NCBI RefSeq assembly: GCF_025961225.1 | Contig: NZ_JAOQNG010000010.1 | Location: 672,501-736,500 of the forward strand | DNA length: 64,000 nt | Source: Azospirillum canadense | GTDB taxonomy: Bacteria > Pseudomonadota > Alphaproteobacteria > Azospirillales > Azospirillaceae | Reading direction: 5' to 3' | In this document: one piece after another, positions 25,081 through 49,094 of the stretch | Numbering within the stretch: position 1 is the stretch's first letter | Layout of the letters: the number at the start of each line of letters is the position of its first letter | Made by a program: the position numbers and the translations under genes | Notes under the pieces: generated by a model | Told to the model about the DNA's origin: nothing | Seen by the model: only the letters and a program-made list of their open reading frames with translations | Databases searched by the model: none

Positions 25081-25098
25081 TAGAATACTAGTATTACA
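25081..25098. promoter_or_regulatory. Operator-like palindrome between kdgT and gntR
   Basis: TAGAATACTAGTATTACA, with a perfect 12-base core AATACTAGTATT (25084-25095). It fits the 18-base pattern TGATATAYTARTATATCA less well than the sites at 33960 and 35220, at 13 of 18 positions. It lies about 125 bases from kdgT and 260 from the regulator start, so it could control both. The rest of the 400-base gap shows only short CACCCGGAC-type repeats near 25170. Confidence 0.5.
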
Positions 25099-28706: not shown

Positions 28707-30212
28707 TTAGGCGCCCAACAGGTCCTTCAACGCGCCGCGCACGCCCTTGGTTTGGATGGCGGCAAGGTGGGCGGCGGTGCGGACCGCGAGGCCGGGGATG
28801 CGGGTCAGGTCCTCGCCCCACAGCCGGGCGTCGGCCAGCACCGTGTTGACCAGCGCCGCCGCGTCGTTGCCGTTCGTCGCCCAGGCCGCGGCCATGGCCG
28901 CGATCACCGCCGCGTCGTCTTTGATTGAATAGGCGCCGGCGTCGCGCGTGCCGGTGTAGGCGCCTTCCGCCAGCGTGCCCTGGTAGAAGCGCAGCAGCGC
29001 GGCCAGCGAGAAGGACAGCCCCTCCGGCGCCTCACCCCTGGCGGCCACCGCGTCCTTCAGGCTGGGCAGCACGCGCACGGCCCACTTCGACACGGAGTTC
29101 AGGGCGATCGAGATCAGCTCGTGCCGGATGTAGGGGTTGCCGAACCGCTCCATGATCGTGCGGGCGTAGTCCTGGCGCTCCGCCTCGGGCAGGGGGACGT
29201 AGGGGACGATCTCCTCGAACATCACCTTGGACAGGTAGGCCGACAGGGTGGCGTCGTCCATCATGCCCTTCACCGTGTCGATGCCCGCGCCATGGGCGGC
29301 CAGCGCGCTTGCCGTGTGGGCGCCGTTCAGGATGCGCACCTTGCGGCTGCGGTAGGGCTTCAGGTCGTCGGTCCACACCACGTTCAGGCCGGCCTTGTGC
29401 AGCGGGAACTCTTCCGCCAGGGCCGCCGGACCTTCGATGACCCAGACGTGGAAGGGCTCGCCGGCCACGGCCAGCGTGTCCTCGTAGCCCCACTTGGCGG
29501 TGAGGGCCGCGGCCTCGTCGCGCGGATAGCCGGGGACGATGCGGTCGACCAGCGTGTTCAGGAAGTGGTTGTGCGCCTCCACCCAGGCGGCGAAGCCGGA
29601 TTCCAGGCCCCAGCGCTTGGCGTGGGCGAGCACGATGCGCTTCAGGTTGGCGCCGTTGGCCTCGATCAGCTCGCAGGGCAGGAAGACCAGGCCGGTCGCG
29701 GCCGTGCCGCCCAGCGCCTTGAAGCGGGCGTGCAGCAGTGCGGCGACCTTGGCCGGGAAGCTCTGCTGGCAGATGCCGGGGGTGTAGGGCTCTTCCACGT
29801 CGGCGATGCCGGCCTCGGTGGTGTTGGACACGACGAAGCGCAGCTGGGGCACCGTGGCGTAGGCGACCATCCGCTCCCAGTCGGTGTAGGGGTCGAGCGC
29901 GTCGGACACGCAGCTGACCACGCGGCGCTCCTCGACCTCGCGGCCCTGCTCGATGCCGCGCAGCAGGACGGTGTAGAGGCCGTCCTGCGCCTTCAGCAGG
30001 CCGGCGATGCCCTGGGCCAGCGGCTGGGCCACGGCGACGCCGGCGCCCATCAGGCCGCGGCCATTGGCGACGTCGACCATCCAGTCGACAAAGCCGCGCA
30101 GGAAGTTTCCGTCGCCCACCTGCAGGATGGTGACGGGAAGCACCGGCGCGCCGGCGGTGTGCGCGACATCGAGCGAGCCGCCAGCGAGGAGGTCACGGGA
30201 GAGCTGGGCCAT
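28707..30212 (-). CDS. uxaB: Tagaturonate reductase (altronate oxidoreductase)
   Basis: A 501-aa NAD-dependent enzyme that interconverts D-tagaturonate and D-altronate in galacturonate breakdown. The start region PVTILQVGDGNFLRGFVDWM and FVVSNTTEAGI (about residue 128-138) are typical of UxaB and differ from the UxuB at 14487. Catalytic signature KVRILNGAH (about residue 293). Start at 30212 behind AAGGA. It is a single-gene unit with its own promoter and operator at 30240 and a terminator at 28648. Altronate dehydratase and uronate isomerase, the adjoining steps, are not in this window. Confidence 0.88.
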   Translation of the reverse strand: MAQLSRDLLAGGSLDVAHTAGAPVLPVTILQVGDGNFLRGFVDWMVDVANGRGLMGAGVAVAQPLAQGIAGLLKAQDGLYTVLLRGIEQGREVEERRVVSCVSDALDPYTDWERMVAYATVPQLRFVVSNTTEAGIADVEEPYTPGICQQSFPAKVAALLHARFKALGGTAATGLVFLPCELIEANGANLKRIVLAHAKRWGLESGFAAWVEAHNHFLNTLVDRIVPGYPRDEAAALTAKWGYEDTLAVAGEPFHVWVIEGPAALAEEFPLHKAGLNVVWTDDLKPYRSRKVRILNGAHTASALAAHGAGIDTVKGMMDDATLSAYLSKVMFEEIVPYVPLPEAERQDYARTIMERFGNPYIRHELISIALNSVSKWAVRVLPSLKDAVAARGEAPEGLSFSLAALLRFYQGTLAEGAYTGTRDAGAYSIKDDAAVIAAMAAAWATNGNDAAALVNTVLADARLWGEDLTRIPGLAVRTAAHLAAIQTKGVRGALKDLLGA

Positions 30213-32962: not shown

Positions 32963-33907
32963 CTACCCGACGTCCTGGGCGAGCACGGCGTCCGTCGCCT
33001 CACGCGGGATGATGGCGCCGCGGTGCTGGATGACGACGGCGGCGATGCGGTGGGCGGCACGGGCGGCCTCCACCGGGCCGCGCCCTTGCAGGCGGGCGGC
33101 GAGGTAGCCGGCGGAGAAGCTGTCGCCGGCCGCGGTGGTGTCCACGACATTGGCGACCTTCTGACAGGGCACCTCCTCCTGGAACCCGTCCGCGGTGGCG
33201 ACGATGCAGCCGGGCTGTTCCAGCTTCAGCACGATCTCCGGCACGCCGGCGGCGCGCACGCGGGCCAGCGCCGCGGCGGCGTCGGTGTCGCCGTACAGGC
33301 CGCGCAGGTCCTCCACGCCGGGCAGGGCGATGTCGGCGCGCCGGAACATGGCGTCGTAAGCGCGCTGCGCCGTTTCCTTGTCCGGCCACAGGCGGGGGCG
33401 CCAGTTGGTGTCGAAGGCGACGCGGCCGCCGCGCTCGCGCAGGCGGTCGAGCAGGGGGAACAGAACCTCGCGCCCGCGCTCGCCCCAGATCGCCAGGCTG
33501 ATGCCGGAGAGGTAGAGCAGGTCGTAGGTCTCAAGGTCGGCGATCAGAGCCGGCGACTGCGGCAGGACGAACAGCTCGCGGGCCGGGGCGGCGTCGCGCC
33601 AGTAGAGGAAGCGGCGCTCCCCCTTGTCATCGGTTTCGATCATGTAGAGCCCCGGCACGCGGCCGGGCACGCGCAGCACATGGCCGGTGCCCACGCCCTC
33701 GGCGCTCCAGGCGGCGACCATGGCGTCGCTGTTCGGGTCGTCGCCCAGCGCGGTGACGTAGTCCACCGGGGCGCCGAGCCGGGCCAGATAGACGGCGGTG
33801 TTCAGCGTGTCGCCGCCGAAGCCCATGGTGAAGGCGCCGTCGGGACGGCGGACCATCTCCAACATGCACTCGCCGAGGGAAGCCACCCGCTTCGCGGAAA
33901 CACTCAT
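32963..33907 (-). CDS. kdgK: 2-keto-3-deoxygluconate kinase
   Basis: A 314-aa PfkB-family sugar kinase. Phosphorylates KDG to KDPG with ATP, the common point of all three uronate branches here. N-terminal VASLGECMLEMVRRPDG and GGDTLNTAVYLARLG; C-terminal PfkB signature VDTTAAGDSFSAGYLAARL with the catalytic Asp in AAGDSF. Start at 33907 lies seven bases after GGAGG; an ATG two codons earlier is too close to that site. First gene of kdgK-gntR-eda-oxidoreductase, with a promoter and operator directly upstream. Confidence 0.95.
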   Translation of the reverse strand: MSVSAKRVASLGECMLEMVRRPDGAFTMGFGGDTLNTAVYLARLGAPVDYVTALGDDPNSDAMVAAWSAEGVGTGHVLRVPGRVPGLYMIETDDKGERRFLYWRDAAPARELFVLPQSPALIADLETYDLLYLSGISLAIWGERGREVLFPLLDRLRERGGRVAFDTNWRPRLWPDKETAQRAYDAMFRRADIALPGVEDLRGLYGDTDAAAALARVRAAGVPEIVLKLEQPGCIVATADGFQEEVPCQKVANVVDTTAAGDSFSAGYLAARLQGRGPVEAARAAHRIAAVVIQHRGAIIPREATDAVLAQDVG

Positions 33908-33959
33908 GCTCATCCTCCGTCCGCCGGTCGTTTGTGGGTCCGTACCCGGCGCTTCGGAT

Positions 33960-35091: not shown

Positions 35092-35131
35092 GAAAAGAAA
35101 AAGGCCACCCGGGGGGAGCCCTGGTGGCCTT
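35092..35131 (-). terminator. Rho-independent terminator on the minus strand
   Basis: AAGGCCACC (35101-35109) pairs with GGTGGCCTT (35123-35131). On the minus strand the stem runs into TTTTTCTTTTC (35092-35102). It stands 101 bases upstream of the DMT transporter start, so it ends a transcript that starts further upstream. Confidence 0.8.
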
Positions 35132-35214
35132 GAAGTCGCTTTTGGAGAAACGCCAACCGGTCGGACAACACGAAGGCTGTGACGGCCGAATGGGCTTCAA
35201 AGGATAACCGAACG
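35092..35214 (-). ncRNA. Possible operator-controlled short RNA or leader
   Basis: A complete minus-strand transcription unit without a protein gene: the promoter and operator at 35220-35249, a predicted start near 35214, and the terminator at 35092-35131, giving about 120 nt. The RNA before the terminator is unstructured-looking, with no ATG; GTG/TTG frames there run through the terminator. It may be a trans-acting RNA under sugar-acid control, or an attenuating leader of the DMT transporter gene at 34028-34990. Confidence 0.4.
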
Positions 35215-35219
35215 AAAAA

Positions 35220-35249
35220 AGCTATACTAGTATATCACATTTGACGCAA
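35220..35249 (-). promoter_or_regulatory. Promoter with overlapping operator, orphan unit
   Basis: On the minus strand TTGCGT (35244-35249), exactly 17 bases, then TATAGC (35221-35226). The operator AGCTATACTAGTATATCA (35220-35237) has a perfect TATACTAGTATA core and the AGTATATCA right half seen before the MFS gene. The only downstream element before a terminator is the short RNA above. Confidence 0.65.
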
Positions 35250-47194: not shown

Positions 47195-47224
47195 TTGCCT
47201 GCGCAGCTGATATATCAGTATGCA
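47195..47224 (+). promoter_or_regulatory. Promoter with CTGATATATCAG operator
   Basis: TTGCCT (47195-47200), 18 bases and TATGCA (47219-47224). The spacer holds CTGATATATCAG (47207-47218), a perfect 12-base palindrome related to the sites at 45231 and 39444. It precedes the 28-residue peptide gene and the AspT-type transporter. Confidence 0.5.
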
Positions 47225-47414: not shown

Positions 47415-49094
47415 ATGGATGTGATCACCAACCTGCTCGTCGCGATGCCGCCCATCGCGCGGGTGGTTTTCATGCTGGGCGTGGTCTCGGCCGCCGGGCT
47501 GGCGCTGGGGCACATCCGCATCCGCGGGGTGGGCTTGGGTATCGGCGGGGTGCTGTTCGCCGGCATCGCGGGCGGGCACGTCGCCAGCGTGACGGGGATC
47601 AGCTTCAACGCGGAGATGATGGATTTCATCCGCGACTTCGGCCTGATCCTGTTCGTCTACACCATCGGCATCCAGGTCGGCCCCGGATTCTTCGCCGCAC
47701 TGCGCGCGTCGGGCCTGAAGCTGAACGCGCTGGCGCTGCTGATGGTGGTGCTGAGCGTCGCGGTATCCGCCCTGCTGGCGGTCAGCGGCGCGCTGCCGCT
47801 GGGCGTGACGCTGGGCGTCTTCGCGGGTGGCGTGACCAACGCCCCGGCGCTGGCCGCCACGCAGCAGGTGCTGACGGAGGTGGGGGCGGACGCCTCGGTG
47901 ATGGTGCTGCCGGGTTTGGCTTTCGCGGTGACCTACCCCTTCGGCATCGTCGGCAACCTGCTGGCCATGGCGCTGGTGCGCATCGTTTTCCGCATCGACC
48001 CGCAGCGCGAAGCGCAGGCCTTTGACGCGGAGCGGCGGCGGGAACTGGCCGAGCTGCACACCATGGACGTCGCCATCCGGAACCCGAGCATCGACGGGCT
48101 GGAACTCCGCCGGCTTTCGACGCTGCCGAGTCTGGGTGTGGTCGCCTCGCGGCTGCTGCGCGACGGCACGCTGGTGGCGCCGAAGCCGGAGACGGTGTTG
48201 CAGGTGGGCGACGTCGTCCACCTCGTCGGCCCGCGTCTGAGGCTGGAGGAGCTGTGCCGGCTGCTGGGCGAGCCTTCGGACGTCACCCTGACCACCAAGG
48301 GCACCGACCTGAAATGGGAGCGGCTGGTGGTCACCGGCAACGCGGTGCTGGGTAAGCCCATTGCTGCGCTGAACCTCCAGGGCCTCTACGGCGTGGTGGT
48401 CAGCCGCGTGAACCGGGCGGGCGTGGAACTGGTGCCGAACGCGGCGCTGAAACTCCAGTTCGGCGACATCCTGACGGTGATCGGCCGCCCCGACGGGCTG
48501 GCCGCCGTGGCGCAGCTGATCGGCAATTCGCCGCGCCGGCTCGAGCAGGTGGAGATGGTGCCGATGTTCTTAGGAATAGCGCTGGGGGCCATTGTCGGCT
48601 CCATCCCGCTGTTCCTGCCGGGCATGCCGGCGCCACTGCGGCTGGGGCTGGCCGGCGGGCCGTTGATCGTGGCGATCCTGCTGGCGCGGCTCGGGCATCT
48701 GGGGCCGCTGGTGTGGTTCATGCCGCCGGCCGCCAATCAGGCGCTGCGGGAGATCGGGATCGTGCTGTTCCTCGGCGTACTGGGCATCGCGTCGGGCGCC
48801 CGCTTCGTCGACACGCTGGCGAGCGGGGCGGGCCTGCCCTGGATGACCTGGGGCGTGCTGGTCACGGCGATCCCGCTGGTCGTCACGGGACTGCTGGCGC
48901 GCGGCGTGCTGAAGCTGAACTTCCTGACCATCTGCGGGGTGCTGACCGGCGCACAGACCAACCCGCCGGGCCTTGCCTACGCCAACGCGGTTGCCGTGTC
49001 GGAAGCGCCGGCGCTGGCTTATGCCACTGTCTACCCGCTCGCCATGTGCCTGCGCATCCTGGCGCCGCAGATCCTTGTGCTGATGCTGTGGTGA
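47415..49094 (+). CDS. AspT/YidE-type transporter with two RCK_C domains
   Basis: A 559-aa inner-membrane protein. Two membrane halves of about five spans each (residues 10-190 and 375-559) flank a soluble middle with two TrkA-C domains (MDVAIRNPSIDGLELRRLST and LVVTGNAVLGKPIAALNLQG). Both halves keep the AspT-family motif GG-x-T-N-x-P (GVFAGGVTNAPALA; CGVLTGAQTNPPGLAYAN). Relatives include the aspartate:alanine exchanger AspT and YidE/YbjL of unknown substrate. Start at 47415 with AAAGTGAG upstream. Confidence 0.92.
   Translation: MDVITNLLVAMPPIARVVFMLGVVSAAGLALGHIRIRGVGLGIGGVLFAGIAGGHVASVTGISFNAEMMDFIRDFGLILFVYTIGIQVGPGFFAALRASGLKLNALALLMVVLSVAVSALLAVSGALPLGVTLGVFAGGVTNAPALAATQQVLTEVGADASVMVLPGLAFAVTYPFGIVGNLLAMALVRIVFRIDPQREAQAFDAERRRELAELHTMDVAIRNPSIDGLELRRLSTLPSLGVVASRLLRDGTLVAPKPETVLQVGDVVHLVGPRLRLEELCRLLGEPSDVTLTTKGTDLKWERLVVTGNAVLGKPIAALNLQGLYGVVVSRVNRAGVELVPNAALKLQFGDILTVIGRPDGLAAVAQLIGNSPRRLEQVEMVPMFLGIALGAIVGSIPLFLPGMPAPLRLGLAGGPLIVAILLARLGHLGPLVWFMPPAANQALREIGIVLFLGVLGIASGARFVDTLASGAGLPWMTWGVLVTAIPLVVTGLLARGVLKLNFLTICGVLTGAQTNPPGLAYANAVAVSEAPALAYATVYPLAMCLRILAPQILVLMLW

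Follow-up and report, generated by a model that had tools for sequence, protein, structure and literature searches.

The question raised by this locus is what is encoded by a short unit that has a promoter, an operator and a terminator of its own. The unit lies at positions 35249-35092 on the minus strand of the window, by which we mean the whole stretch of 64,000 nucleotides of Azospirillum canadense DNA that was analysed. From sequence comparison we think it probable that this unit encodes a small RNA that acts in trans, is about 120 nt long and is distantly related to the suhB/MmgR RNAs, and that it is controlled by the operator of the sugar-acid (uronate/2-keto-3-deoxygluconate) genes. The predicted transcript is called RNA A below.

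The -35 element TTGCGT (35249-35244), of which TTGC is kept in 11 of 11 aligned units, is followed after a spacer of 17 nt by the -10 element TATAGC (35226-35221), which is TATAGC in A. rugosum too and TATAAG or TATAAA in the remaining aligned units. The operator TGATATACTAGTATA (35237-35223), recognised from the numbers of its matches in the window and the genome, overlaps the -10 element and contains a perfect palindromic core of 12 bp, TATACTAGTATA (35234-35223), which was present in all 11 of the RNA A units first fetched. RNA A, a unit supported by homologues, a covariance model and an alignment, is predicted to run from about 35214 to about 35092 and closes with an intrinsic-type terminator (35129-35092) that consists of a GGCC-rich stem (35129-35103) and the T-rich tail TTTTTCTTTTC (35102-35092). 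The preliminary description had given TTGCGT-N17-TATAGC, a GntR-type operator over the -10 element and a stem after about 120 bases, and reading the sequence proved the coordinates right. That is, as far as the letters can tell, the unit is confirmed as real. The promoter and the terminator of RNA A were both absent from the list of a simple promoter and terminator scan, which accepts a -10 element only if it ends in T. The fold of RNA A is predicted at -44.1 kcal/mol, compared with -33.9 kcal/mol for shuffled sequences (z -3.0; 2 of 200 shuffles as good).

Then the other sites of the operator were collected. With up to 3 mismatches the 15-mer had 8 matches in the window, one of which is a site counted again on the opposite strand, against 0.02 expected. 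The form TGATATAYTARTATA with up to 2 mismatches gave 29 matches in the same genome and 1 for the reversed control, and the corresponding pairs were 25 and 2 in G020, 25 and 1 in G018, 22 and 6 in G007, and 17 and 3 in G001, palindromic sites being often counted on both strands. One copy in the window (33977-33963, minus strand) stands before a 2-keto-3-deoxygluconate-kinase-like gene (32963-33913), the product of which scored 366 bits against an NCBIfam cut-off of 400 and which lies in one row with a GntR/FCD regulator and KDPG aldolase. Another copy (30257-30243, minus strand) stands before the tagaturonate reductase gene (28707-30212). The GntR-family regulator with its FCD domain (33150-32251, minus strand; Pfam PF00392 and PF07729; coordinates of the open reading frame as listed, with the true start probably further in) is a candidate for the protein that binds the operator.

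In A. brasilense Sp7, operator matches set against the annotation precede gap, a sugar kinase-GntR-eda row, a TRAP transporter row, pyk, a GntR-kduI-kduD row, kdgT, ppc, an epimerase gene with tagaturonate reductase, a GntR-kduD-TRAP row, uxaC with altronate dehydratase, and a GntR-mgrA row; several GntR genes are thus linked to the operator in this strain. The sites before gap, pyk and ppc, on Sp7 plasmid p3, indicate that the regulon reaches lower glycolysis and anaplerosis. RNA A therefore shares its operator with catabolic genes, as is expected of a member of a sugar-acid (uronate) regulon, and the statement that it is under the same control as the uronate genes is supported by the sites before tagaturonate reductase and the kinase-like gene in the window and before uxaC, tagaturonate reductase, kduI/kduD and kdgT in Sp7. 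Two weaker operator-like sites were also seen in the window, at 47208-47222 (plus strand) and 25084-25098 (minus strand), each with 3 mismatches to the exact window site; the former has TTGC upstream and precedes a membrane-type open reading frame of 559 amino acids (47415-49094).

The distribution of the unit was examined by two kinds of search. An initial search found it in 12 of 41 genomes at E <= 0.01 and also gave short partial matches, among them a 32-nt one in another family (G025), promoter-only ones and terminator-only ones. With BLASTN at E <= 1e-4, the 158-nt unit was matched in 17 of 45 Azospirillum genomes, the match in G001 being borderline (E 7.5e-5), and gave no match at this threshold in the remaining 28. 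The preliminary description had named a search with Rfam and covariance models as a check. Rfam at its gathering threshold gave no match in the whole window except one tRNA, and the nearest family, RF00519 (suhB/MmgR, also alpha-r8), scored 22.7-24.2 bits, under its cut-off of 41. A covariance model that we built from 16 sequences of the transcript alone, leaving out the operator, was run on 82 genomes of the family and detected 18 RNA A loci, distributed over 17 genomes, with E <= 5.2e-14; the next match followed at E 5.6e-5. This search used strict filters, by which weak matches are lost.

Conservation between promoter and terminator, another check named at the outset, was found. In the alignment of 16 RNAs, which leaves out the G043 copy as it is without the search word used for extraction, the 5' end carries the conserved block CGTTCGGTTATCCTTTGAA, a second conserved block, G(A/G)CGTTTCTCC, precedes the terminator, and the middle is variable; both blocks are altered in G001. 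In the window the 5' block is GTTATCCTTTGAA (35208-35196), which includes the anti-Shine-Dalgarno-like UAUCCUUU and is partly unpaired in predicted folds, and the second block is GGCGTTTCTCCAAAA (35154-35140), which includes the anti-Shine-Dalgarno-like UUUCUCC. In these folds UAUCCUUU and UCUCC flank one stem, and they are partly paired in some relatives. Promoter, operator, RNA blocks and terminator are all kept in the 11 units aligned with their flanks. Between the window and A. rugosum, the nearest named relative in the comparison, RNA A is identical in 119 of 123 columns and the promoter in 33 of 35, compared with 352 of 387 in the upstream coding sequence, 80 of 94 around the start of the DMT transporter gene, and 85 of 101 and 31 of 44 in two intervals. 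RNA A is more conserved between these two than the neighbouring genes are. Comparison of the window type (GGCCACC/GGTGGCC) with the commonest brasilense type (GACCGCC/GGCGGTC) shows 2 pairs of the terminator stem in which both partners are changed, and the covariation of RNA A as a whole is slight, with such a change in 2 of 30 predicted pairs and a covariation term of -0.12. G055 has two RNA A units (G055:C4:16045-16165 and 659812-659932) near both ends of a contig of 660,876 bases. The two are identical over the 125 nt compared and may reflect a circular sequence whose overlapping ends were left untrimmed, in place of a duplication.

We next consider the relation of RNA A to known RNAs. The RF00519 model gave 22.7 bits for RNA A in its own genome (E 0.088) and 24.2 bits in G018 (E 0.025), and with lone RNA A units it matched 1 of 17 at E <= 0.1 (23.9 bits) and left 16 without a match. 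RF00519 was also the best of ten matches when 176 nt around RNA A were scanned against Rfam (E 0.0067). Formal membership was rejected on these scores. In the search with our own model, the ten best secondary hits were all loci of a second RNA, called RNA B, which stands under the same operator and is described below; 13 of the 24 weaker matches were RNA B, and 2 further ones coincide with RF00519 matches. The model missed 4 of 17 RNA B loci, including that of the same genome, and hit the others at E 5.6e-5 or weaker. Taken together, the comparisons suggest that RNA A is likely a diverged suhB/MmgR-like relative and not a member of the family, and that it is akin to RNA B; the GGCC-type make-up of the terminator, common to A and B, may add to the kinship scores.

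RNA A resembles the suhB/MmgR RNAs in its ACGUUUC/GCGUUUC-UCC core, which lies on the 3' side of a stem and before a GGCC-rich terminator. These RNAs are multicopy in Azospirillum, and RNA B, the sibling of RNA A under the same operator, passes the cut-off of the family in 2 of 3 loci. In contrast, RNA A is about 120 nt long compared with 77 nt for the family, has UCUCC where the family has UCCUCCC, and possesses the additional conserved 5' block. In the suhB/MmgR core the anti-Shine-Dalgarno sequence GGCGUUUCCUCCC stands 3' of a short stem and is followed by the terminator, whereas in RNA A G(G/A)CGUUUCUCC (in G001, GGCGAUUCUCU) comes after a longer stem and then the terminator. The equivalence of GGCGTTTCTCCAAAA with this core was judged from the 16-RNA alignment, the RF00519 copies and the Rfam alignment of one RNA A unit.

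The promoters differ as well. RNA A has the sugar-acid operator, whereas 15 of the 19 over-cut-off RF00519 copies in two genomes (12 in G000 and 7 in G018) have a PhaR-like box instead. The box YGCRNYGCR was found within 100 nt upstream of these 15 copies and in 39 of 475 stretches taken as controls at the same loci, which are mostly coding DNA around the copies and not matched intergenic DNA. The two RNA B copies among the 19 are preceded by the sugar-acid operator and not by this box, and two other copies have neither. YGCRNYGCR is the core of the published PhaR motif, and PhaR has been reported on the mmgR promoter of Sinorhizobium meliloti (PMC12542648), where the reported control is by NtrC and AniA/PhaR (PMC7143759, PMC12542648). 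By analogy, PhaR may bind these boxes at the Azospirillum copies.

RNAs of the MmgR, AbcR or RF00519 kinds have been described in rhizobia (PMC7143759, PMC12542648, PMC8844928). MmgR is reported to have one anti-Shine-Dalgarno motif, in its first loop, its direct target being then undescribed (PMC7143759). AbcR1 and AbcR2 (alpha-r15; rhizobia and Brucella) resemble RNA A in length, with 114 and 120 nt in S. meliloti, and they are reported to have partial RF00519 homology and two anti-Shine-Dalgarno motifs (PMC7143759, PMC8844928). AbcR1 and AbcR2 of S. meliloti adjoin lsrB (PMC7143759), the gene of a LysR-type regulator (PMC8844928); RNA A has a GntR-type operator, and the sections of these papers on AbcR mention none. 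The alpha-r15 family was absent among the 10 Rfam matches of RNA A at E <= 10. Another anti-Shine-Dalgarno RNA of similar length, alpha-r14/NfeR1 (RF02344; PMC8844928), gave 18.4 bits with RNA A against a cut-off of 58.8. The small RNAs from the uxuR regulator gene of Escherichia coli are, as is proposed for RNA A, linked to hexuronate regulation, but their promoters lie in the 3' end of uxuR (PMC10016265), whereas RNA A is a stand-alone gene under an operator. None of 6 sequence words of A and B occurs in the main text of a small-RNA survey of A. brasilense Sp245, a text that may not print all sequences (PMC7685610), and titles and opening lines of abstracts in the open-licence literature on uronate- or GntR-linked small RNAs included none under a uronate operator.

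The kinship raises the possibility that RNA A does not repress targets of its own and acts instead as a sponge or decoy, or as a sibling in competition with the many suhB/MmgR RNAs over Hfq or shared targets. RF00519 had 6-19 matches per genome (E <= 0.01) in all 45 Azospirillum genomes, so that overlapping targets are likely. On the other hand, the diverged core of RNA A, with UCUCC for UCCUCC, and its extra conserved 5' block suggest that it has its own targets, and we regard action as a sponge or competitor as unlikely.

The preliminary description had offered another possibility, that the unit is a terminator or attenuator in the leader of the DMT transporter gene, so that transcripts either stop at 35092 or run on into that gene. 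The DMT (EamA) gene (34990-34028, minus strand; Pfam PF00892) lies 3' of the RNA A terminator and outside the RNA unit, with 101 nt from the T tract to its ATG. It follows RNA A on the same strand in three genomes (the window species, A. rugosum and G001), and read-through into DMT is possible in these three. At the 8 other RNA A loci a DMT gene was not found within the 1.5-kb flanks, and in 7 of 7 matching plasmid records the annotation under the match ends puts altronate dehydratase on one side of RNA A and gcvA on the other. The altronate dehydratase gene of A. brasilense Sp7 (NZ_CP012917) stops at 610373, and the gene that follows RNA A there is gcvA, which is convergent (610502-611416). 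An attenuator would always stand before the gene that it regulates, which is not the arrangement at these loci. Nor is the unit a regular companion of the transporter, as only the A. rugosum locus among 11 DMT loci compared has a match to it, 4 of the 10 loci without a match being covered for only 1.1-1.4 kb upstream. The conserved blocks also extend beyond the terminator. G001 has a second copy of the operator (G001:C5:128208-128222) after the RNA A terminator and before the DMT gene, where it may serve as a control site of the transporter itself.

Two unrelated gene contexts, only one of which has a DMT gene, indicate that RNA A is a free-standing transcription unit and not an attenuator of DMT. 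For this reason we rejected the attenuator as the main reading and consider it improbable. The unit has its own promoter and terminator, a conserved RNA and no fixed neighbour gene, as a trans-encoded small RNA does, and the proposal of a small RNA gene made in the preliminary description is supported by the independent unit in two contexts and by the conserved blocks. In Sp7 the 3'-terminal 37 nt of the modelled RNA A (plasmid p3, 610419-610538, plus strand) lie opposite the annotated 3' end of gcvA, which is on the minus strand, and an antisense effect on gcvA is therefore possible in contexts of this type.

It is very improbable that RNA A encodes a small protein. The supporting feature is a TTG at RNA position 15 or 16, from which a frame runs without a stop as far as the alignment reaches in 15 of 16 sequences. 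No purine-rich ribosome-binding site precedes this TTG within 14 nt, the frame is closed in G001, the products of the window and brasilense types, offset from each other by an indel, differ strongly, and there is no conserved ATG. The original remark that the unit is without an ATG is correct for the window and A. rugosum and fails for 6 of the 16 aligned sequences, in which ATG occurs at differing places not common to all.

The sibling RNA and the relation to the suhB/MmgR RNAs go beyond what had been noted before. RNA B, traced from two of the promoter-only or terminator-only matches of the first search for RNA A, stands under the same operator, and its terminator is preceded by the core CTGGACGTTTCCTC. 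It lies at C7:1308806-1308679 (minus strand) in the same genome, and in Sp7 at about 485487-485623 of plasmid p3, between ppc and an aminotransferase-family gene. Against the RF00519 cut-off of 41, RNA B reached 44.3 bits in the former genome and 44.9 bits in G018, and that of G001 stayed under it, so that 2 of the 3 tested loci pass. At RNA A and RNA B alike, the operator overlies the spacer and the -10 element, the position in which a repressor would block transcription.

A pattern of operator and core at the right spacing, derived from the A and B units already seen, matched 38 times, in 21 of 45 genomes, compared with 1 match for the reversed control. They comprise 17 RNA A loci (16 genomes), 17 RNA B loci (17 genomes) and 4 others; the RNA A of G001, with its changed core, was missed by this pattern and found by BLASTN and the covariance model. 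A and B are present in the same 17 Azospirillum genomes, which may come from common descent of one clade alone. In the 4 others (G047, G049, G022 and G003, all of which lack A and B) a stem and a T run come after the core, which indicates that the operator has met this type of RNA at further loci. We think that this suggests repeated wiring of suhB/MmgR-like RNAs to the sugar-acid operator.

The promoter, operator, terminator, conservation and co-occurrence of A and B are features of the sequences themselves; from here on we infer how the unit may work, that is, its expression and induction, the binding protein, the part of Hfq, the pairing and the targets. When sugar acid is absent, transcription of RNA A would be blocked by a GntR-type repressor bound to the palindrome that overlaps the -10 element, as is suggested by the position of the palindrome and by the other genes bearing the same site. 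With sugar acid the repressor would leave, and RNA A would be made together with the catabolic genes and RNA B, its transcript stopping at its own terminator. The segments UAUCCUUU and UUUCUCC would then be exposed on either side of the one stem of the predicted fold. By analogy with AbcR and MmgR, these C/U-rich segments may base-pair with other mRNAs at the ribosome-binding site and reduce translation, Hfq probably assisting. The likely purpose would be that, with sugar acids in ample supply, the cell takes up or uses less of other, competing carbon sources.

A wider picture can be proposed, which we hold tentatively and with a little less than even confidence. A and B would form a paired RNA arm of the sugar-acid regulon, arisen as suhB/MmgR copies were captured, on more than one occasion, by the operator in place of a PhaR-type box; RNA A would have changed its core and gained a second anti-Shine-Dalgarno block, and growth on plant-cell-wall sugars would silence a defined set of mRNAs, possibly those of fatty-acid porins. 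If this is true, pectin-derived sugar acids of plant roots are tied to post-transcriptional control in a genus known for plant-growth promotion. It would also be a natural case of a small-RNA family rewired by promoter exchange, with PhaR-like boxes on most copies examined and the sugar-acid operator on few. In A. brasilense Sp7 a single plasmid bears A, B and a large part of the regulon, and the claim is directly testable in this strain.

AbcR1 and AbcR2 are reported to silence mRNAs through two independent anti-Shine-Dalgarno motifs (PMC8844928). Complements of both RNA A segments were looked for before start codons. An exact search in 5 genomes for GGAGAAACG-N0-10-ATG, the complement of the core segment, listed 52 places against 1 for the reversed pattern, an excess to be expected because the pattern is itself a ribosome-binding site with a start codon. 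Two sets of genes recurred in three genomes each, which from their sequences we take to encode a FadL-type outer-membrane protein (G001, G011 and G018) and an enoyl-CoA hydratase (G000, G020 and G011). The hydratase site also occurs in G047, which is without RNA A, and is missing in G001, which has it. A search with the 15-mer complement of the core (up to 2 mismatches, 4 genomes), leaving out the four copies of RNA A itself, gave 12 places against 11 for the control.

The FadL leader was examined in 30 genomes, namely 16 of the 17 that have RNA A and 14 of the 28 in which it gave no match. Among those with RNA A, 12 have GGGGAGAAACGC-ATG, 1 has GGGGAGAAGCGC, 1 has AGGGAGAAACGC, and the window species and A. 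rugosum have only GGAGAAAC; the GGGGAGAAACGC-ATG site is complementary to the RNA A core in 12 of 13 brasilense-type genomes. Among those without RNA A, 11 have GGGGAAGGAAC and 1 has GGGGAAGAAAC, and the site is kept as GGAGAAACGC in G009 and GGAGAAAACGC in G022, which speaks against co-evolution of FadL and RNA A. The contrast between the two groups is confounded by descent, as the FadL proteins of genomes with RNA A are at least 78% identical to the query and the others at most 58%. When the duplex was limited to the seed, 0-12 of 500 shuffles were as good in 15 genomes, for a gene that had been chosen for its seed match; over the whole length of RNA A and the FadL leader the duplexes were no better than shuffles (10-163 of 200 as good). 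The FadL-type porin mRNA may thus be named, with low confidence, as the best target candidate found for RNA A.

Finally, the complement of the 5' block was searched as AAAGGATAA-N0-10-ATG, which gave 5 places in 4 of the 5 genomes, none of them in the genome of the window species, against 2 control places. The only place common to two genomes (G018 and G011) is before a gene for an ABC-type binding protein, where AAAGGATAATC precedes the start and is complementary to the 5' block of RNA A over 9 bases, or 11 with a G-U pair.
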